From Actinomucor elegans (Eukaryota > Mucoromycota > Mucoromycetes > Mucorales > Mucoraceae): a stretch of DNA of 64,000 bases. Numbering within the stretch: position 1 is the stretch's first letter; each line of letters begins with the position of its first letter. Both the position numbers and the translations under genes were made by a program. This document shows, piece after piece, positions 4,303 through 14,815 of the stretch. The DNA lies in NCBI GenBank assembly GCA_026027325.1, contig JAMSLZ010000007.1:1-64000 (forward strand), in the 5' to 3' direction. The notes beneath the pieces were generated by a model. It was not told the origin of the DNA. It made no database searches and worked only from the letters and a program-made list of their open reading frames with translations.

Positions 4303-5499
4303 TTATGGGTAGCACACAATATTTTCGCCATAGTGAGGAGGGCGTTCAGCTCTTCTCTTAGCGAGAAAACAATCCTTGGTGTCATGGGTCGCATTGTTAC
4401 CATGATGGATGCACGAAAAGGGTTTCGCCACCTTACTCGCCTTTTGCACCCGACGAGCTGCATTCTTGTGATGATGGTGATAGGGGGCCTTTTCTTTGCG
4501 TCGCTCAACAACAGGCGCACCAGGAAGAAGAGAAACAGCCTCATTATACGACGTATGGTCGTCACCAAGAATATCACGACCAATCTGTGCGATTTGATCG
4601 ACAGTGTATTCAGCATTCTCACCAGAAGATCCAGCCTTCACTGAATTCATTGCAACTCTGATCAGCGTCTGAACAGGTTTAGTCAGCGAGGCCAAAAAAC
4701 GATCAGCTACTCTAGGACACTCTCTAGGTAGGCCTGCATCAAACATTGCTGTTTGAAAACGCTTAGCATAGTCGCCCACCGACTCATTGTTTTCCATTAC
4801 CATGGTAAACACAAGGTCAGTATATCTTCTCAACACAAGGGAAGAACCGTGCTGCTTCTTAAACTCTCTACGAGCATCTGCCCATAGGGTACAACCTCTA
4901 CTCAGCTCATCTTTCACCCATGCTTTATCGCCATGGGGAAGGCAAAGGGGTAAGAAGTTCTTCCACACCTCATCAATGGACATGGAAGAAGACTCAACTA
5001 CATCCTCAAATTCTCTCAAAAAATGCTCAACAGACTCGAAGGCTTCGTAACCTGGAAAAGGTTTGACAGCCGAGGTCAAGAGTTGGAACTTGGGCAAGTC
5101 GCGACGATTCAATGTCAAACCAGTAGGTGGCTTAACACGATCAACCTCACCGATCAATGAACTGCACTCTTGGATCTCACGGAGCATCCTCTTGGAGCGT
5201 TCAAGGGCCAACAAGGCTTCATCAGCCGCTACGTCATCTCTGACTACACGAGCACGACTAAACGCTTGAAGGTATCGGGTAATATCTGCACGGAGCCCGG
5301 CGATATTTGTGTCAATCAGTTGTGGGTCAGTCATGTCAGCAACAGCATGCTCAGCCGACTCAGACAACAAAGAACTAGCACCAGGAGACTTGATAAACTC
5401 ATCAAGGTTGCTTGACAAGGTCGATTCATCAAACATGGGGGTGTCAGGGTTAACACCACAGTTGGCAGAAGAAGAACCAGAAACGTTGTTGGAAGCCAT
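4303..5499 (-). CDS. Orphan Gag-like protein (Ty3/Gypsy-type capsid), 398 aa
   Basis: Single uninterrupted ORF starting ATG (MASNNVSG). The middle (about residues 150-290) has the features of a retrotransposon Gag capsid: YEAFESVEHFLREFEDV, W.NFLPLCL, a W.DARREFKK block, a SVGDYAKRFQ segment and an R.ADRFLASL motif. The basic C-terminus ends in a CIHH..NATHDTKDC cluster, a Cys/His arrangement like the short zinc finger that ends many fungal Gag proteins. No protease, reverse transcriptase or integrase follows, and I found no LTR pair, so this is either a remnant of an element or a retained Gag gene. The intact 398-codon frame argues against an old neutral remnant. Host function, if any, is unknown. 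Confidence 0.75.
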   Translation of the reverse strand: MASNNVSGSSSANCGVNPDTPMFDESTLSSNLDEFIKSPGASSLLSESAEHAVADMTDPQLIDTNIAGLRADITRYLQAFSRARVVRDDVAADEALLALERSKRMLREIQECSSLIGEVDRVKPPTGLTLNRRDLPKFQLLTSAVKPFPGYEAFESVEHFLREFEDVVESSSMSIDEVWKNFLPLCLPHGDKAWVKDELSRGCTLWADARREFKKQHGSSLVLRRYTDLVFTMVMENNESVGDYAKRFQTAMFDAGLPRECPRVADRFLASLTKPVQTLIRVAMNSVKAGSSGENAEYTVDQIAQIGRDILGDDHTSYNEAVSLLPGAPVVERRKEKAPYHHHHKNAARRVQKASKVAKPFSCIHHGNNATHDTKDCFLAKRRAERPPHYGENIVCYP

Positions 5500-6032: not shown

Positions 6033-9000
6033 TTATGAGCGTTTACAACAAGGATGACACAGCGTGTCAATCACATAGAGAATCTCAAGGAGTGCAGACC
6101 AGAAAGGCGGTGGACCATTGGATGCTTTCAAGGGCAACAAGTTCAGGGCATGATCAATGCGATTGACATCTGGCGGAGCAGCAGGTAATTGGCACAGAAG
6201 GCGAGGATCAATGCCACGGCAATTGAACACAAAGTGATCTCGAGAGAGCCGGCAACCAGTGAAACAAGGACACAATTCATCACGGTTAGCGAAACGGCCT
6301 AAGCGCCATCGAACAAGACGACTGCGAGCAGCGCGAGTCATAGGCAGGTACAGTATTGGATCAGGCTTTGAAGTAGAGGGCCGACAAGCACGCAAAAGAA
6401 CCGATTTACCAGTGTGAGCAGCAGCAGCCATTTGCTTGTCAAAGAGGTCTTGCCAGTAGCCAGAGAACCAGGACTTGAGACGAGAGGCTGTAGGTACAGG
6501 ATTGGGCAATGCCATATGCATAGGATTGAGGTATAGGAGCTTGTTCAATCGAGTGTAGCCAAGACCAGAAGGAGAATTGTCTCGAGAAGAGTTCAGCAAT
6601 GATATCAAGCAATCATCCGGAAGCCATTGCGACCGTAGGGCATACTTGGTAACCAGGACATTGTATCGATGCTTCATGGAAGGGATACAAGTGATGTGCT
6701 TCGTGACATTGAACCATCGGGAGCCAACAAACATACCAACTAACCGGTTCTGAAGGTTATCCAAAGCAGTAAAGTCAGCAGCAGAGAGCCTAGATATAGC
6801 AAGACCGTACTCAAACTTGGGCCGAATGAAGGTAGTATATAACCGAGAACAGAGCAAGAGAGAGAAACCATTACGGTTGACACCAACCGAATTCAGTAGA
6901 GCCATGGTTTTGACTGCACCACCAGACCGTTTAGCCAGGATACCCGGACCATCAAGACCTTTCTTGTTGAATGGCATACCAAGATACGTGAACTCGTTCA
7001 CTGCAGGCAGAGGAACATCATAGAGACTCAGTCTAAAGTTGGTAGACGTAGAGGAGGTCACAGAAGGAGCGTTCAGGACAGCACACTTGGTAGGGTTCCA
7101 ACGATAGCCCAGTACTCTTGAATGATCAGCAGCTAAGTTCAACATATTTTGCACCTCATGTTTGGAGCCAAAGATTGCCACATCGTCGGCAAACAGAAGA
7201 CAGTTAATGGCCACAGCCTCAGCAGATCCAGGAGGAGACACTACAGCAGTAGTATCTGAAGCTTCAGACCGAAGGAGCTCAGGCAAGGAGTTGATGTACA
7301 AAGAATACAAGTGAGGACTCAACACCGAACCTTGGAGTACACCAGTGGCAGGAGAGAAAGAGGAAGAGATGTGGTTGGCAATCAACACGGAGATGGATAC
7401 ATCATCAAATAGATTGACCAGCAGACCAAGGAGAGGCCGAGGCAGAGATGAATTCTCAAGAGCATTCCAGATCACACATCGATCAACAGTGTCATAGGCA
7501 GCCTTAATATCCAGAAAAGCAACAACAGGATAGTGGTGATGAACCAAGAAGTAGTTGTGCATCAGGTCGTGCAGACAGAGGGCTTGATCCAGAGGACTAC
7601 GCATAGGACGGAAGCCACCTTGTGCGAGATCTAGAGAAGGCGAATGGTCATAGACGCTTTGTGCAATGGTAATCTCAAACAACTTACGCATCACCGAAGT
7701 CAAAGAAATTGGCCTGTAGTTGGCAGGATCAGAAGCATCACCTTTCTTGAAGATAGGAAAGACCTGGGCTTGACGCCATAGAACCGGTGTATAGCACCAT
7801 TGGTAACAAACCTGGAATAGCAAAGAGAGGACAGGAGCAAGTAAATCAGCAACAGCCTTGAGCATTTCAGCTTTTAGATGATCAGGACCAGGAGCTTTGC
7901 GATTCGGCAACTGTTTGATATGCTCAACCAAGGTTTCCACCGAGAAAATCCAAGACACTTCTTCATCAGACACCAGGAAAGGCACTTCTAAACCAAAGTC
8001 AGGAGCAGCCAGGGGACGAGAAGCAGTTGACAAAAGAGAACCATCATACACTGTAGCCAGGTGAGTAGCCATAGAATCGACTGATGCTTGAGGGCCATCA
8101 GGATGAGCATACGTAGCAGAAGTTTCTTTCCGGCGTTTCAGCCTAGACATGGTGGCAGTGGCCTTGGCAAAGTCCTTTTGGAGTGACATGCAAAAGTTCT
8201 TCCAGGAGAGTCTTTTTGCAGCAGCAACAGCACGACGAAACGACTTGTGAGCTTGCAGATGGAGATGCCAGTAATAAGCCTTGTCAACACCAAATGAATG
8301 ACGCCAACGGCAATAGAGGCGATCACGTTCTCGAGCAGCAGCTTCCAGATCAGCTGTCCAGTACTTCTTCCAATGACCAGGACGGGGAGCCTTAGACCCA
8401 ATGGATTCATCCATCGCCTGATAAAGACACTCATTCAGAGATGTATTGAGTGAATCTATAGGTGGACGACTATCCGGAGGAGAACCAACCAGACCAGCAA
8501 GAGTATCCTTCAAAGGAGCAACCAGACACCGAAACCGAGTATGGAACAGAGCCAAAGGCTCAGACTCAGCCAGCCGACTGAGGTTCCATGTCCTACGAGG
8601 AGCCAGCACCGAAGAGTCACCTACACCAGAAGAGCCACCAGAAACAGCAATGTACTTGAACCCCAACTGAAGCAGCCGATGATCAGAGCCCAAAGACAGA
8701 TCGGATGCCACAGAAAGAGAAGGAGACACCATACCAGAACCACCAATGTTGGTCAAGAACAAGTCAATGATACTGCTCGCCACAGCACCATTTCTGAAGG
8801 TACAGTATGTATCAATACCATACGCCAAGGAAGCATTCAACACTGACAGATTGCGTTCTTCAATCCAAGGAAGCAGAGCTAGACCACGAGGATTTGTTGC
8901 AGAATCACCAGTAAGATCACCAAGGCGTGTATTGAAGTCACCGCAGATAATAGTATCAGTGTGAAGAGGCAGTGAGTTGAGAGAAGAGAGCACCAGATCA

Positions 9001-9377
9001 CGAGAGAGACTGGGTGGAAAGTAGACACAATGTACATTGACTTTGTCAACCTTGATCGACAGAGTATATGCATTGTAAGACGGAAGTTGAGAGACAGTAA
9101 AAGGACAGTGAGGAGAGATGAGAGCAGTGACACCACCTGAGCCACGTCCATTGGCATTAGTGACAGTTTGACCGTACAGATGATATTGAGACCAATCGGT
9201 AGGGATCAACCCAGAGGTAAGCCAAGTTTCAGTAATCAGGAGGATATCACAAGAGAGAGCATGAGAGAGTACATCATGGATGGTAGTGACCCGAAGGCCA
9301 TTGGCATTCCACAATGCAAGAGAAAAGGAGCGGACGGGGGTATCAGAAGGAGTGAAAGGAGGGACTGAAGATGTCAT
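6033..9377 (-). CDS. LINE ORF2, copy A: APE endonuclease + reverse transcriptase, 1114 aa
   Basis: Intact ORF that nicks target DNA and reverse-transcribes the element RNA. N-terminal APE-type endonuclease (about residues 20-245) with LWNANGL, ITETW, CGDFN and SDHRLL, the Asn, Glu, Asp/Asn and His positions of the fold. Reverse transcriptase (about residues 470-790) with FPIFKKGDASDPANYRPISL, GGFRPMRSPLDQ, AFLDIKAAYDTVDR, GVLQGSVLSPHLYSLYINSL and the catalytic FADD. A C-terminal Cys/His knuckle (CPCFTGC...H....C) follows. The start ATG overlaps the ORF1 stop as TAATG. The last residues (CCKRS) differ from copy B, which ends in a longer tail. The first ~395 residues are almost identical to copy B, while the rest is clearly more diverged. 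Confidence 0.93.
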   Translation of the reverse strand: MTSSVPPFTPSDTPVRSFSLALWNANGLRVTTIHDVLSHALSCDILLITETWLTSGLIPTDWSQYHLYGQTVTNANGRGSGGVTALISPHCPFTVSQLPSYNAYTLSIKVDKVNVHCVYFPPSLSRDLVLSSLNSLPLHTDTIICGDFNTRLGDLTGDSATNPRGLALLPWIEERNLSVLNASLAYGIDTYCTFRNGAVASSIIDLFLTNIGGSGMVSPSLSVASDLSLGSDHRLLQLGFKYIAVSGGSSGVGDSSVLAPRRTWNLSRLAESEPLALFHTRFRCLVAPLKDTLAGLVGSPPDSRPPIDSLNTSLNECLYQAMDESIGSKAPRPGHWKKYWTADLEAAARERDRLYCRWRHSFGVDKAYYWHLHLQAHKSFRRAVAAAKRLSWKNFCMSLQKDFAKATATMSRLKRRKETSATYAHPDGPQASVDSMATHLATVYDGSLLSTASRPLAAPDFGLEVPFLVSDEEVSWIFSVETLVEHIKQLPNRKAPGPDHLKAEMLKAVADLLAPVLSLLFQVCYQWCYTPVLWRQAQVFPIFKKGDASDPANYRPISLTSVMRKLFEITIAQSVYDHSPSLDLAQGGFRPMRSPLDQALCLHDLMHNYFLVHHHYPVVAFLDIKAAYDTVDRCVIWNALENSSLPRPLLGLLVNLFDDVSISVLIANHISSSFSPATGVLQGSVLSPHLYSLYINSLPELLRSEASDTTAVVSPPGSAEAVAINCLLFADDVAIFGSKHEVQNMLNLAADHSRVLGYRWNPTKCAVLNAPSVTSSTSTNFRLSLYDVPLPAVNEFTYLGMPFNKKGLDGPGILAKRSGGAVKTMALLNSVGVNRNGFSLLLCSRLYTTFIRPKFEYGLAISRLSAADFTALDNLQNRLVGMFVGSRWFNVTKHITCIPSMKHRYNVLVTKYALRSQWLPDDCLISLLNSSRDNSPSGLGYTRLNKLLYLNPMHMALPNPVPTASRLKSWFSGYWQDLFDKQMAAAAHTGKSVLLRACRPSTSKPDPILYLPMTRAARSRLVRWRLGRFANRDELCPCFTGCRLSRDHFVFNCRGIDPRLLCQLPAAPPDVNRIDHALNLLPLKASNGPPPFWSALLEILYVIDTLCHPCCKRS

Positions 9378-9882
9378 TATTGTGACATTTCAGTATCGCT
9401 ATCACCGGTAACGTCTTCACCAGATGGCAAAGCACCAGAACTACGGAATGCAAAAGCAGCCTTCTTGGGATCCTTTTCGGCAAGACGAGAGCGAGCTTCC
9501 TTAATGGCTTGATCAAGATCACCATCATCAATCCATCCAAGTTCCACAAAGGAGCGACCAACAGAAGGGACCATCACTGGTCGAATGAACGCCAGAGTGC
9601 TGATACAGCGAGAGTGAACGAGGTTAGCCATCTCGTTTTCACGAGCATTGGCTGAGAGAGAAGCATACTTGGGGTCAGCAAGATGGGCTGGGTTTAAAGG
9701 ATCAAAATCCTTAATGAACTCAGCTTCAGCCGTAGTCATAAGCTCGGTAAACTTTTCAACATACTGCGTATGTATCAGGACACCAAGGACACCAGTAGCA
9801 GGGAAACAGACATCTAACACACGACCAGTGTCAACACCAGCGCGACGTAACCGAGAGCGGACTTCAGTACGATCAAGTTTGC
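6051..9882 (-). mobile_element. LINE (non-LTR retrotransposon) copy A, truncated at 5' end and possibly 3' end
   Basis: Minus-strand element of the same family as copy B (9897-14742). It contains the end of ORF1 and an intact ORF2. Its 5' end breaks inside ORF1 at an Arg codon (CGC, 9883-9881), directly against the first bases of a tRNA-Ala sequence. Its 3' side diverges from copy B at about 6051 (copy B 10277), just after the shared TLCHP codons, so the copy-B-type C-terminus and 3' UTR are missing. No target duplication was found at the low-coordinate end, as expected if the 3' end was lost by rearrangement. Confidence 0.85.
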
Positions 9883-9883
9883 G
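9377..9883 (-). pseudogene. LINE ORF1, copy A, C-terminal fragment
   Basis: The frame runs from the 5' break of copy A to a TAA at 9379-9377, about 168 codons without a start. It corresponds to the C-terminal half of the copy B ORF1 (shared RLRRAGVDTGR, DVCFP, HTQYVEKFTELM, AEAEFIKDFDPL, GRSFVE, DPKKAAFAFR, DSDTEMSQ) with roughly three quarters of residues the same. The N-terminal coiled-coil half is missing. Confidence 0.85.
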
Positions 9884-9896
9884 GGGATGTAGCTCA
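9883..9896 (+). repeat. Left copy of a 14-bp target-site duplication (5' end of tRNA-Ala)
   Basis: GGGGATGTAGCTCA, identical to the first 14 nt of the intact tRNA-Ala at 14743-14756. It lies between LINE A (5' break) and the 3' end of LINE B, as expected for a duplication made when LINE B integrated at the start of the tRNA gene. The remaining tRNA sequence is absent here. The first G may be shared with LINE A. Confidence 0.85.
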
Positions 9897-10210
9897 GTTT
9901 AAAGATTATATTTTATTTATAAGTAGTTATATGGGCAAACTCTATAGAGCATCTAGCCTAACTATATGAAAAGTGTTTAAAGTAAACATAGAAAAAAGTA
10001 TAAAAAACCCTGAGACCCACAAGGGAGAAAAAGGTTGAAGACAAGTTAGAGAACCAGTAGACTATTGCAGCTCTGAGTGATCCAAAAGGCAGGCCAACAG
10101 CTGGGAACTTTGATAATCACTTACCACCGTGGCTGCGCAGTTGAAAGACAAACAGGCTGGTTCATCAATAGAACAGAGAGAAAGAGTGGCTCAATAAACC
10201 AAGGAGAGGT
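9897..10210 (-). other. 3' UTR of LINE copy B
   Basis: About 314 nt between the ORF2 stop and the left target duplication. No long ORF. On the element strand it ends in AT-rich sequence (...AATCTTTAAAC). This tail is not found beside copy A. Confidence 0.7.
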
Positions 10211-13200
10211 TTATATGGCAGGAGTAGCAGCAAACCAAGCATCACCTGGATCTGGATCATGAACAAGTGTGGCAAGAGGATGACACAGCGTGTCAATCAC
10301 ATAGAGCAGTTCAAGAAGAGCAGGCCAGAAAGGAGGTGGACCAGCAGAGGCTTTGGTAGGCAAGCAATTGAGAGCATGATCGATGGCATTGACATCCGGA
10401 GGGGTATCAGGCAGTTGAGAGAACAGGCTTGGGTCAATACCGCGGCAATCAAAGACAAAATGGTCTCGAGAGAGTCGGGAGCCAGAGAAACAGGGACACA
10501 GTTCATCACGGTTGGTGAACCTACCAAGACGCCATCGAACCAACCGACTACGTGCAGTGCGAGACATTGGGAGATACAAGATTGGATCAGGCCGAGAAGT
10601 ACATGGTCGACAAGCACGCAGGAGAACAGATCTACCAGATGTAGCAGCAGCAGCCATTTGGTCATCAAACAAGTTTTGCCAGTATTGTGAAAACCAAGAG
10701 CGGAGACGCGAGACTGTTGGAACCGGACTAGGGAGTGCGAGATACATGGGATTGCATTTTAGAAGCTTTTCCAGCCGAGTATACGGGATACCAGAATCAC
10801 CTGAATTCAGCATGGACACCAGGCAGTCATCAGGAAGCCACTGAGAACGCAAAGCATACTTGGTCACAAGAACGTTGTAGCGGTGCTTCATCGAAGGGAT
10901 ACAAGTCAGATGCTTTGCAACATTGAACCAGCGAGAGCCAACGAACATACCAACAAGACGATTCTGGAGCTGATCCAGGGCAGTAAAGTCAGTAGCGGAC
11001 AGTCGAGAGATGGCAAGCCCATATTCGAACTTGGGTCGAATAAAGGCTGTATACAACCGAGCACAGAGCAACAGAGAAAAGCCATTCCGGTTCACACCGA
11101 CAGAGTTCAAGAGAGCCATAGTCTTGATAGCACCACCAGATCGTTTTGCCAGAATACCGGGACCAAAGAGACCTTTCTTGCTAAAGGGCATGCCAAGATA
11201 AGTGAACTCGTCAACAGATGGTAGAGCAACCCCGTAAAGAGTCAATCTAAAATTTGTTGAAGTGGAAGATGTCACGGAAGGAGCGTTCAGAACAGCACAC
11301 TTGGTAGGATTCCAGCGGTAACCGAGAGATTTTGAATGGTCAGCAGCCAAATCAAGCATTTCTTGCACCTCATATTTCGAGCCAAAGATTGCCACATCAT
11401 CAGCAAACAAGAGGCAGTTGACAGGAACATAGCTCATGGTACCAGGCGGAGACACTTTACTTGCAGTAGCAGAGGCAGTTGAGCGCAGTAAACCAGGCAG
11501 AGAGTTAATGTACAAGGAGTACAGGTGTGGACTTAACACCGAGCCTTGGAGAACCCCAGTAGCAGGTGCAAATGCAGCCGAAGAATGGTTGTTGATCAAT
11601 ACTGAAATAGATACATCGTCAAACAAGTTGACTAGCAAACCAAGAACAGCACGAGGCAGAGAAGAGTTGGCAAGAGCATCCCAAATAACGCGTCGATCCA
11701 CAGTATCATATGCAGCTTTGATATCCAAGAAAGCCACCACAGGGTAGTGATGGTGGGCCAAGAAGTAGTCATGCATCAAGTCATGCAAGCAGAGGGCTTG
11801 ATCCAGAGGACTACGCTGAGGACGGAAACCACCTTGTGCAAGATCCAAAGCCGGAGAGTGCTCATACAGACATGAAGATAACGATATCTCAAAGAGTTTT
11901 CGCATAACAGAGGTCAAGGAGATGGGTCTATAGTTGGCTGGATCATCTGCATCACCTTTCTTGAAGATCGGAAACACTTGAGCCTGACGCCAGATCAACG
12001 GTGTATAACTCCATTGGAAGCATACCAGAAACAGCAGAGAGAGTACAGGAGCCAGAAGTTCAGCAACAGCTTTGAGCATTTCAGCCTTGATGTGATCCGG
12101 ACCAGGAGCTTTGCGATTTGGAAGCTTCTTGATGTGAAAGACCAATTCCTCCACGGAGAACAAGCTATCGGCAACCTCATCATCAACCATGTATGGTGTT
12201 TCAAGAGCAAAGTCAGAATCAAAAGAAGGTCGAGAAGCAGTAACCAACAGAGAACCATCATATACGGAAGCCAAGTGACTAGCCATTGTATCCACAGAGG
12301 CTTGGGGACCATCTGGGTGGCTATATGTAGCAGTAGATTCTTTGCGACGCTTGAGACGAGCCATGGTTGCAGTAGCTTTGGTGAAATCCTTTTCCAGAGA
12401 AGCACAAAAGTTTTTCCAGGATAACCTTTTGGCAGCAGCAACAGCACGACGAAACGACTTGTGGGCTTGTAGATGGAGATGCCAGTAATAAGCCTTGTCA
12501 ACACCAAACGAATGACGCCAACGGCAATAGAGACGATCGCGTTCTCGAGCAGCAGCTTCCAGATCAGCAGTCCAGTACTTCTTCCAATGACCAGGACGGG
12601 GAGCCTTAGACCCAATGGATGCATCCATAGCCTGATAGAGACACTCATTCAGAGATGCATTGAGTGAATCTATAGGTGGACGACTATCCGGAGGAGAACC
12701 AACCAGACCAGCAAGAATATCCTTCAAAGGAGCAACCAGACACCGAAACCGAGTATGGAACAGAGCCAAAGGCTCAGACTCAGCCAGCCGACTGAGGTTC
12801 CATGTCCTACGAGGAGCCAGCACCGAAGAGTCACCTACACCAGAAGAGCCACCAGAAACAGCAATGTACTCGAACCCCAACTGAAGCAAACGATGATCAG
12901 AGCCCAAAGAGAGATCAGAAGCAACAGAAAGAGAAGGAGACACCATACCAGAACCTCCAATGTTGGTCAAGAACAAGTCAATGATACTGCTCGCCACAGC
13001 ACCATTTCTGAAGGTACAGTATGTATCAATACCATACGCCAAGGAAGAGTTCAACACTGAGAGACTGCGCTCTTCAATCCAAGGAAGTAGAGCTAGACCA
13101 CGAGGATTTGTTGCAGAATCACCAGTAACATCACCAAGGCGTGCATTGAAGTCACCGCAGATAATAGTATCAGAATGAAGAGGCAGTGAATTCAGAGAAG

Positions 13201-13609
13201 AGAGCACCAGATCACGCGAGAGACTGGGTGGAAAGTAGACACAATGCACATTGACTTTGTCAACCTTGATCGACAGAGTATATGCATTGTAAGACGGAAG
13301 TTGAGAGACAGTAAAAGGACAGTGAGGAGAGATGAGAGCAGTGACACCACCTGAGCCGCGTCCATTGGCATTAGTGACAGTTTGACCGTACAGATGATAT
13401 TGAGACCAATCGGTAGGGATCAACCCAGAGGTAAGCCAAGTTTCAGTAATCAGGAGGATATCACAAGAGAGAGCATGAGAGAGTACATCGTGGATGGTAG
13501 TGACCCGAAGACCATTGGCATTCCACAATGCAAGAGAGAAGGAGCGGACAGGATTGTTCAAAGGAGTGACAGGAGTAGCAGAAATGAAAGGAGGGACTGA
13601 AGATGTCAT
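10211..13609 (-). CDS. LINE ORF2, copy B: APE endonuclease + reverse transcriptase, 1132 aa
   Basis: Same enzyme as copy A ORF2 and complete. APE endonuclease with LWNANGL, ITETW, CGDFNARLGD and SDHRLL; RT with FPIFKKGDADDPANYRPISL, GGFRPQRSPLDQ, FLDIKAAYDTVDRR, GVLQGSVLSPHLYSLY and FADD; C-terminal CPCFSGSRLSRDHFVFDC, where one Cys of the copy A knuckle (FTGC) is Ser (FSGS). The C-terminus extends about 20 residues past the point where copy A diverges, ending FAATPAI. The start codon overlaps the ORF1 stop (TAATG at 13611-13607), which suggests termination-reinitiation as the way ORF2 is translated. No RNase H domain was recognised. Confidence 0.95.
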   Translation of the reverse strand: MTSSVPPFISATPVTPLNNPVRSFSLALWNANGLRVTTIHDVLSHALSCDILLITETWLTSGLIPTDWSQYHLYGQTVTNANGRGSGGVTALISPHCPFTVSQLPSYNAYTLSIKVDKVNVHCVYFPPSLSRDLVLSSLNSLPLHSDTIICGDFNARLGDVTGDSATNPRGLALLPWIEERSLSVLNSSLAYGIDTYCTFRNGAVASSIIDLFLTNIGGSGMVSPSLSVASDLSLGSDHRLLQLGFEYIAVSGGSSGVGDSSVLAPRRTWNLSRLAESEPLALFHTRFRCLVAPLKDILAGLVGSPPDSRPPIDSLNASLNECLYQAMDASIGSKAPRPGHWKKYWTADLEAAARERDRLYCRWRHSFGVDKAYYWHLHLQAHKSFRRAVAAAKRLSWKNFCASLEKDFTKATATMARLKRRKESTATYSHPDGPQASVDTMASHLASVYDGSLLVTASRPSFDSDFALETPYMVDDEVADSLFSVEELVFHIKKLPNRKAPGPDHIKAEMLKAVAELLAPVLSLLFLVCFQWSYTPLIWRQAQVFPIFKKGDADDPANYRPISLTSVMRKLFEISLSSCLYEHSPALDLAQGGFRPQRSPLDQALCLHDLMHDYFLAHHHYPVVAFLDIKAAYDTVDRRVIWDALANSSLPRAVLGLLVNLFDDVSISVLINNHSSAAFAPATGVLQGSVLSPHLYSLYINSLPGLLRSTASATASKVSPPGTMSYVPVNCLLFADDVAIFGSKYEVQEMLDLAADHSKSLGYRWNPTKCAVLNAPSVTSSTSTNFRLTLYGVALPSVDEFTYLGMPFSKKGLFGPGILAKRSGGAIKTMALLNSVGVNRNGFSLLLCARLYTAFIRPKFEYGLAISRLSATDFTALDQLQNRLVGMFVGSRWFNVAKHLTCIPSMKHRYNVLVTKYALRSQWLPDDCLVSMLNSGDSGIPYTRLEKLLKCNPMYLALPSPVPTVSRLRSWFSQYWQNLFDDQMAAAATSGRSVLLRACRPCTSRPDPILYLPMSRTARSRLVRWRLGRFTNRDELCPCFSGSRLSRDHFVFDCRGIDPSLFSQLPDTPPDVNAIDHALNCLPTKASAGPPPFWPALLELLYVIDTLCHPLATLVHDPDPGDAWFAATPAI

Positions 13610-14553
13610 TATTGTGACATTTCAGTATCGCTATCACCAGAGATGTCTTTACCAGAGCGACGGAAGGCAAAAGCAGCCTTCTTAGGATCTTGTTCAGCAA
13701 GCCGGCGACGAGCATCCACCATGACATGGTCAAGAGTTTCATCATCCATCCATCCTTTCTCAACAAAGGAGCGACCAACAGAGGAGACGAGCAAGGGACG
13801 TACAAAGGACAATGTATTGATGCATCGAGAGTGAACGATTTTGGCCATTTCATTAGCCCTAGCATCCAGTGAAAGAGAGTCATAGCGTGGATCAGCTAAA
13901 TGGGCAGGGTCCAATGGATCAAAATCCTTGATAAATTCGGCTTCGGCAATAGTCATAAGCTCAGTGAACTTTTCTACATACTGAGTATGTAACAAGATAC
14001 CAATGACACCAGAGGCGGGGAAACAGACATCAATCACACGGCCAGTGTCAACACCAGCACGACGGAGACGGGACCGGACTTCCAAACGGTCAAACTTGCG
14101 AGAGCGGCCAAGATACACGTAGGTAAAACCTTGTGGGCCTTGGGCTTCTGCGGTCTTGAACACACGGGCTGCAGCAATGCGTTTCTTAAGCGAAACAGAA
14201 CCAGAATTCTTACTCTTTTGGCGAGTAGGAGCAGCGGCAACAGAAGCAAATGTGGGTTTAGCCACTTTTACTTCAGGGGAGACTTGAGAATTAACCAATG
14301 GCTGATCGACATTGGCAATGGGATTTGAGATTTTGGACATTAGCTTTGAGATCTCGGTACGTAATTGCTGGTTTTCATCAGCAAGGGCTTGTTTTTCTGA
14401 CTGTAGGGTTTGAATTGTGTCTTTCAAAGCTTGAAGCTCTTGAAAAACAGTTTGGTGTTGTTGCACTTGTTGAACGACAGAAAAGACCATTTGCTGCAAT
14501 TGCATTTGGTCAATTAGGCCAGATGGCTCAGATGCATGTTGAACATTGGACAT
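13609..14553 (-). CDS. LINE ORF1, copy B: coiled-coil RNA-binding-type protein, 314 aa
   Basis: Starts ATG (MSNVQHASEPS). Residues about 15-82 are a strong coiled coil, rich in Gln, Leu and Glu (VVQQVQQHQTVFQELQALKD, then SEKQALADENQQLRTEISKL). A basic linker follows (TRQKSKNSG..LKKRIAAAR), then a globular region (about 145-240) starting FTYVYLGRSRKFDRLEVRSRL, likely the nucleic-acid-binding part. The plan (N-terminal coiled coil, basic C-terminal half) is that of LINE ORF1 proteins that coat the RNA as multimers. I saw no CCHC knuckle. The gene ends in the TAATG overlap with ORF2. Confidence 0.88.
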   Translation of the reverse strand: MSNVQHASEPSGLIDQMQLQQMVFSVVQQVQQHQTVFQELQALKDTIQTLQSEKQALADENQQLRTEISKLMSKISNPIANVDQPLVNSQVSPEVKVAKPTFASVAAAPTRQKSKNSGSVSLKKRIAAARVFKTAEAQGPQGFTYVYLGRSRKFDRLEVRSRLRRAGVDTGRVIDVCFPASGVIGILLHTQYVEKFTELMTIAEAEFIKDFDPLDPAHLADPRYDSLSLDARANEMAKIVHSRCINTLSFVRPLLVSSVGRSFVEKGWMDDETLDHVMVDARRRLAEQDPKKAAFAFRRSGKDISGDSDTEMSQ

Positions 14554-14742
14554 TTCGAAATGGAGAAAACTTCAAGATGTCGAAAACTTGATGGAATGTT
14601 CTGAAAAAAAAACTGCAGATAGTACTTGGCGAGGCGAAGATGGATGTGCAATTTTTATAGATGGATGTATAGTAGTTGTTGAGATATTCGGCTTTGAAAA
14701 AGTGGATTTTTGAAAAAAGTTTTCAAAAGCGAAAGAAGAGTG
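14554..14742 (-). promoter_or_regulatory. 5' UTR and presumed internal promoter region of LINE copy B
   Basis: 189 nt between the tRNA 5' end and the ORF1 start, containing no ORF. LINEs normally carry their promoter in the 5' UTR; no specific motif is recognised here. Because the tRNA-Ala gene is divergent and adjacent, its Pol III machinery lies within 200 bp of the LINE start codon. Confidence 0.4.
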
Positions 14743-14815
14743 GGGGATGTAGCTCAAATGGTAGAGCGCTCGCTTAGCATGCGAGAGGCACTGGGATCGA
14801 CGCCCAGCTTCTCCA
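14743..14815 (+). tRNA. tRNA-Ala (anticodon AGC)
   Basis: 73 nt, no intron. Acceptor GGGGATG pairs with CTTCTCC, including the G3:U70 wobble that identifies alanine tRNAs, with one T-T mismatch at 6:67. D arm GCTC...GAGC, anticodon arm CTCGC-TTAGCAT-GCGAG with anticodon AGC, T arm CTGGG-ATCGACG-CCCAG, discriminator A. The A box (TAGCTCAAATGG) fits consensus. Its first 14 nt also occur at 9883-9896 as the other half of the LINE B target duplication, so the insertion left the tRNA intact. Confidence 0.95.

Follow-up and report, generated by a model that had tools for sequence, protein, structure and literature searches.

A LINE family at the 5′ end of tRNA-Ala(AGC) genes in Actinomucor elegans, with an ORF1-only partner

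The window analysed here (the whole stretch of 64,000 nucleotides, C25:1-64000, in the 36.5-Mb, 27-contig genome of the fungus Actinomucor elegans; contigs are written C1, C2 and so on) carries a long interspersed nuclear element (LINE), called LINE B, that lies directly against an intact tRNA-Ala(AGC) gene and is bracketed by two copies of a 14-nucleotide (nt) word, GGGGATGTAGCTCA, identical to nt 1-14 of that gene. The junctions, which recur throughout the genome, indicate with a probability of about 0.93 that the LINE family inserts at a single exact position, the 5′ end of tRNA-Ala(AGC) genes, by target-primed reverse transcription. A second, shorter family, which encodes only a homologue of the first open reading frame (ORF1), uses the same site.

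The locus and the coding capacity of LINE B

The word occurs twice in the window, at 9883-9896 and, as the beginning of the tRNA, at 14743-14756, with a third copy absent, and LINE B exactly fills the interval between the left copy (the stub, i.e. the word without its tRNA) and the gene. The perfect 14-base-pair (bp) duplication around LINE B that had been reported in the earlier note is therefore confirmed. The same note had the left copy standing alone, but it does not lie in unique DNA: the left stub adjoins a second, 5′-truncated element, LINE A, so that two LINEs are stacked in the window. The features are as follows (UTR, untranslated region; aa, amino acids):

6051..9882, minus strand: LINE A, an 81%-identical subfamily relative of LINE B
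9883..9896, plus strand: stub GGGGATGTAGCTCA, equal to tRNA-Ala nt 1-14; the distal of the two copies of the duplicated 14-bp target
9897..14742, minus strand: full-length LINE B (4,846 bp), running from its 5′ end at 14742 to its 3′ end at 9897
9897..10210, minus strand: LINE B 3′ UTR, 314 nt, with a predicted short hairpin and a terminal tail resembling that of the ORF1-only partner
10211..13609, minus strand: LINE B ORF2, 1132 aa, with AP-type endonuclease (PF03372/PF14529), reverse transcriptase (RT; PF00078) and C-terminal CCHC motif
13609..14553, minus strand: LINE B ORF1, 314 aa
14554..14742, minus strand: LINE B 5′ UTR, 189 nt, whose terminus CACTCTTCTTTCGCT (LINE sense) lies against the tRNA 5′ end
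14743..14815, plus strand: intact tRNA-Ala(AGC), whose nt 1-14 form the proximal copy

LINE A is truncated at its 5′ side inside ORF1, exactly at the stub; on its 3′ side it stops at 6050, where an end of the long terminal repeat (LTR) type interrupts it. LINE B terminates at its 3′ end in ATCTTTAAAC, without poly(A), and the stop codon of its ORF1 and the start codon of its ORF2 overlap as TAATG. The ORF2 product scores over the Pfam cut-off for PF03372, PF14529 and PF00078; in its CCHC motif C1038, C1040 and H1050 are invariant and C1055 is nearly so (alignment of the query with 25 of the 98 proteins detected, 26 sequences in all), and its best sequence match in the PDB is the LINE-1 ORF2 protein (71 bits). 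Judged by these domains, LINE B is a non-LTR retrotransposon of the APE type (apurinic/apyrimidinic endonuclease), L1-like. The ORF1 product gave only coiled-coil matches in Pfam, all below the cut-off, and its predicted model consists of a long, coiled-coil-like helix (residues 16-75), a small alpha/beta region (143-202) and further helices, with a mean predicted local distance difference test (pLDDT) score of 77 and a predicted template modelling (pTM) score of 0.54. Relatives of ORF2 at 35-87% identity are found in other fungi and in metagenome contigs; a pattern scan of viral contigs for such relatives gave three pattern matches, none of which was confirmed.

At least three LINE copies are 100% identical over 4,343 bp, which suggests recent activity, and 26 of at least 46 ORF2 matches in the genome cover 95% or more of the protein without an internal stop. 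Between the ORF2 of LINE A and that of LINE B the non-synonymous divergence (dN) is 0.092 and the synonymous divergence (dS) 0.679; thus, ORF2 is under purifying selection.

The stub, the elements and their arrays across the genome

Exact matches to GGGGATGTAGCTCA number 84 in the whole genome, 53 of them on the forward and 31 on the reverse strand, while the reversed-pattern control has none. A chance recurrence of so short a word, which the earlier note had recognized as the finding that would undermine targeting, is ruled out by these counts. The downstream context of all 84 words was read: 11 continue as tRNA-Ala, 72 are followed by GTTTAAAGATT, the 3′ end of an element, and one by GTTTG and then by another stub. 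The 11 tRNA-Ala(AGC) genes, whose number was obtained with DNA and pattern searches, do not differ from one another at any of their 73 nt; in an Rfam tRNA search of the genome, tRNA-Ala was not among the best 63 of 2052 candidates.

Circularity was avoided by a search independent of the stub, in which the element 3′ ends alone were sought with up to 3 mismatches. It returned 69 ends, 51 of the LINE family (family 1) and 18 of the ORF1-only family (family 2), and the exact 14-nt stub adjoins 68 of them, including all 18 of family 2. This genome-wide inspection of flanks, which had been suggested together with the original proposal of insertion at the tRNA 5′ end, bears that proposal out. The exceptional end, at C1:35264, adjoins 13 nt (GGGATGTAGCTCA) preceded by an LTR-type end, and at the single family-1 5′ end without a stub, C1:41409, the next sequence is GGGGAT and then an LTR-type start. 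These look like the two halves of one stub, into which an LTR-type sequence of about 6.1 kb apparently inserted, GGGAT being repeated. The 3′ searches did not include five of the 73 stubs, namely those at four family-1 ends with small indels and that at GTTTG. The latter (C14:147392-147424, L047) is a 5-nt sequence between two complete stubs, perhaps the shortest insertion here, and it fits a very early 5′ truncation.

The opposite ends of the elements tell the same story. With up to 2 mismatches allowed (control matches, one for family 1 and none for family 2), 42 of the 43 family-1 5′ ends lie 0-8 nt, and 15 of the 16 family-2 5′ ends 1-12 nt, from a stub or a tRNA-Ala gene. At three junctions (L019, L077 and L022) a further 6-11 nt of the tRNA 5′ end are attached to the element 5′ end, which would fit an RNA start slightly inside the neighbouring tRNA or stub. 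Furthermore, all of at least 58 DNA matches and at least 46 ORF2 protein matches (lower bounds, the best 38 of 103 and the best 41 of 263 candidates having been scored) lie within 15 kb of a stub or an occupied tRNA-Ala gene, and 53 and 35 of them, respectively, within 1 kb; the three empty tRNA-Ala genes were omitted from the 84 words for this count of distances.

An element lies directly upstream at eight of the 11 tRNA-Ala genes, while three are empty (C21:3401488, C26:772864 and C27:1133232). The array on C27 has an outer flank that can be aligned with the flank of the empty gene on the same contig, a paralogous rather than an allelic site (78 of 103 aligned columns identical; score 50 versus at most 12 in 500 shuffles), so that the far end of this array looks as if it had retained its native flank. 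Since the word starts there exactly at nt 1 of the tRNA, the second cut would fall at the 5′ boundary of the gene.

Within arrays the elements are arranged head to tail, with the tRNA head-to-head with the element. Thirteen intervals of 4,847-4,872 bp correspond to about one LINE plus stub, and nine of 1,959-1,991 bp to about one family-2 element plus stub. When runs are defined by same-strand words with gaps of up to 60 kb, the longest ones, measured from the farthest stub to the tRNA, reach about 103 kb on C22 and about 70 kb on C8, with other sequence between the units.

Beside the LINE array the window also contains a fragment resembling a tnp2-type transposase (248-856, just below the Pfam cut-off) and one resembling a retrotransposon gag protein (4303-5499, at the cut-off). 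Elsewhere in the window lies a gene for a GRP94-type HSP90, with 84% identity to that of Mucor circinelloides and 83% to those of M. velutinosus, M. ambiguus, Parasitella and Pilaira, a further relative reaching 90%; these values make a host in the Mucoraceae the most likely one.

Mode of insertion, the partner element and alternative explanations

The junctions are best accommodated by a scheme in which the ORF2 endonuclease would nick the tRNA-sense strand within the A box, between nt 14 and nt 15, and the 3′ end of the element RNA, CUUUAAAC, would be reverse-transcribed from the freed 3′-OH. A second nick, in the opposite strand at a distance of 14 nt, would fall on the mature 5′ boundary of the gene, and fill-in would double nt 1-14, leaving a 14-nt stub at the far end of the element and a whole, reusable tRNA gene. 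Because the stagger would equal the distance from the nick to the 5′ boundary, the target would survive unchanged, and repeated insertions would build head-to-tail arrays. In most cases, an exact-site LINE of RNA genes probably disrupts the copy into which it inserts. As to why such a site is used, harmlessness to the host and the open chromatin of genes transcribed by RNA polymerase III (Pol III) may both contribute.

Several points weigh against this picture or restrict it. The nick positions are deduced from the junctions, and the evidence for the habit covers one genome. Five groups of elements (C1:15-67k, C7, C15, C21:8-56k and C22:2.13M) have no visible tRNA-Ala at the expected end, and the 3.8-5.0 kb read beside the groups on C1, C7 and C22 held no tRNA; the C15 contig stops 3.9 kb past its last stub. 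The identical copies could also result from gene conversion. Since an insertion into an old stub looks the same as one at the tRNA itself, distance from the tRNA is not taken as a measure of age, and no strict stratigraphy, with the oldest element farthest from the gene, is claimed. Finally, target specificity may be wider than tRNA-Ala, since a sequence resembling the family-2 5′ end with 2 mismatches (C13:386328-386381, L097; 54 aligned positions, 89% identity) adjoins a tRNA-Met gene at C13:386382. The 9.3 kb read around this gene contains no exact tRNA-Met stub, and C13:377200-385720, read for a LINE at the tRNA-Met, matched, among the references compared, only a repeat that is also found inside family 2; the junction may have been left by a related element that targets another tRNA.

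How the site is recognized is a separate question. The element might be tethered to the Pol III machinery, as for TRE5-A of Dictyostelium, with the complex setting the exact position instead of recognition of the DNA sequence, a tentative alternative with which both the position of the insertion site, at the tRNA 5′ boundary and the A box, and the tRNA-Met junction agree. So does the surrounding of other tRNA genes, given that at least 14 of 53 such genes (a non-random sample) have shared LTR-like repeats ending about 8-11 nt upstream, which is suggestive of Pol III tethering (loci L100, L102, L103, L107, L112, L120, L123, L127, L128, L130, L141, L144, L147 and L150). Along with these ends go modules of about 46 bp that are repeated at various tRNAs and also at four stubs of tRNA-Ala (L011, L049, L082 and L083), and the arrangement looks like targeting in the style of Ty3. 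The flanks of 52 of the 53 genes entered the BLAST comparison, two identically named tRNA-Phe flanks of L105 having been merged, while L109 and L111, at which no tRNA was sought, were excluded. However, the 3′ ends found independently share one position to the nucleotide in 68 of 69 cases, and tRNA-Ala is the only target of the confirmed copies, whereas TRE5-A is spread around a position about 47 bp (23-181 bp) upstream of many tRNA genes (PMC5391098). In view of this constant position, direct recognition of the DNA is favoured.

The partner element raises the question of its own origin. The complete family-2 copy that was read is 1.97 kb long and has a single long frame, a 338-aa ORF1 counted from the first ATG, and no RT-sized frame. 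Family 2 and LINE B both start with ACTCTTCTTYCGCT, LINE B having one C ahead of it, and both end in a similar predicted hairpin followed by ATCTTTAAAC. These common termini and the homologous ORF1 are what a recent internal deletion of the LINE would leave, but such an origin is unlikely and was rejected on the divergence of the two ORF1 proteins, which are just 29% identical over 274 aa (E-value 7e-33). Moreover, proteins related to the family-2 ORF1, with 40-69% identity, are found in several Mucor species (among them M. velutinosus and M. circinelloides) and in Parasitella, Benjaminiella, Pilaira and Rhizopus, and for 10 of 49 matches the longest contig is 1.89-2.04 kb, a size that suggests an ORF1-only element as an old lineage of its own. 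HAL1 represents a type of ORF1-only non-autonomous LINE. Family 2 has the corresponding features, like TRE5-A.2, in that ORF1 is kept, an RT-sized frame is lacking and the 3′ tail is similar to that of the LINE. Since both families have a target in common and family 2 has no ORF2, its mobilization in trans by the ORF2 of the LINE is likely.

Some family-2 loci depart from this simple structure. Units of about 6 kb were considered as autonomous LINEs and rejected, because both units read consist of the 1.97-kb unit plus other inserted sequence. These are family-2 elements at C8:350612-356733 and C1:61419-67441, in which a repeat of about 4.2 kb and about 2.4 kb, respectively, is inserted; it is bounded by inverted copies of about 0.42 kb and is also present in C13:377200-385720. 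A lone match to the family-2 ORF1 region (72%, about 230 bp) was found at C2:1008701-1008930 (L109), on a contig without any stub.

The origin of the 14 nt can also be questioned, as the word might be a fixed part of the element RNA, a 3′ flank acquired by read-through, instead of a duplication produced by staggered nicks. Indeed, neither the length nor the sequence of the stub varies among 68 of the 69 ends, and read-through within arrays could provide it; on the other hand, the word equals the target exactly while the tRNA retains its own copy, and the 5-nt insertion on C14 still lies between two full stubs, which makes this explanation quite improbable. Segmental duplication of a few tRNA-plus-LINE blocks, with which the near-equal spacing of units (4,870 and 4,869 bp on C15; 4,872, 4,872 and 4,869 bp on C22) is compatible, is very improbable and was rejected as the sole cause of the arrays, given the several different truncation points at the left flanks of stubs, the same junction in two families of different length and in a 5-nt insertion, and the flanks of the filled and empty C27 sites, which differ, being 76% alike.

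Relation to known elements and significance

The finding belongs to a known kind, the target-specific LINEs of RNA genes, here represented by an exact-site, target-regenerating element of tRNA-Ala genes with an ORF1-only partner. The closest analogy is offered by the Dictyostelium TRE5 and TRE3 elements, which are likewise associated with tRNA genes, encode an ORF1 and an ORF2 with endonuclease, RT and zinc finger, and have an ORF2-less partner (PMC5391098, PMC5633606). In particular, TRE5-A.2 lacks ORF2 and is moved in trans (PMC5633606), and TRE3 inserts about 100 bp downstream of tRNA genes (PMC5391098, PMC5633606). Family 2 likewise lacks ORF2 and has the same target as the LINE. Unlike the TREs, for which many tRNA genes serve as targets, at about 50 bp on the upstream or 100 bp on the downstream side, the present element enters after nt 14 of the gene itself, at one exact nucleotide inside one tRNA type, tRNA-Ala(AGC) being the only one confirmed, and the gene is regenerated. 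The likeness to TREs drawn in the earlier note is thus sound as an analogy and fails as an identity (for the position and range of TRE5-A, PMC5391098): the element works like a TRE but, by position and tRNA range, is not one.

Among other exact-site LINEs, R2, Mutsu, Keno and Dewa also have a single fixed position each, in a repeated RNA gene or in the spacer of such a gene, that of Dewa being a tRNA-Leu spacer, and in the available part of the source none of those named is placed at the 5′ end of tRNA-Ala (PMC3706591). Exact sites inside tRNA genes are also used by Dada elements, one family of which is found in zebrafish tRNA-Ala, but these are DDE DNA transposons with short duplications and, therefore, a different mechanism (PMC3706591). 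Within the Mucorales, Ty3-type elements co-localize with tRNA genes in Rhizopus oryzae; they are LTR elements, and a LINE link is not stated in the part of that report available (PMC2699053).

LINE1-like elements of Mucoromycotina are, like the present ones, clustered in certain regions (PMC7377519, PMC7763443). Among them, Grem-LINE1 of Mucor lusitanicus is pericentric and about 5.9 kb long by the coordinates given; the accessible text describes no tRNA link for it, and the comparison made here is one of descriptions only (PMC7377519, PMC11943222). In the open-licence literature, which leaves many journals outside its scope, no description was found of a LINE at the 5′ end of a tRNA gene in Mucoromycota.

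Taken as a whole, the family offers a clean case of a parasite solving the problem of target supply, in which each 14-nt stub is a tag that counts insertions. The ORF2 protein would be a fungal enzyme with a precise tRNA-gene target, testable for directed insertion, and the ORF1-only partner makes the role of ORF1 in trans-mobilization accessible to experiment. Should Grem-LINE1 turn out to have the same habit, the clustering of such LINEs would be explained. In a broader view, which is offered as speculation and is doubtful as it stands, an old Mucorales LINE lineage would hit a single nucleotide of tRNA genes and restore the gene at every insertion, which would make each tRNA-Ala a self-renewing landing pad; this lineage and an ORF1-only lineage co-evolved with it would build long blocks, and the same process, at tRNA genes flanking centromeres, may underlie the pericentric blocks of Grem-LINE1 in Mucor.

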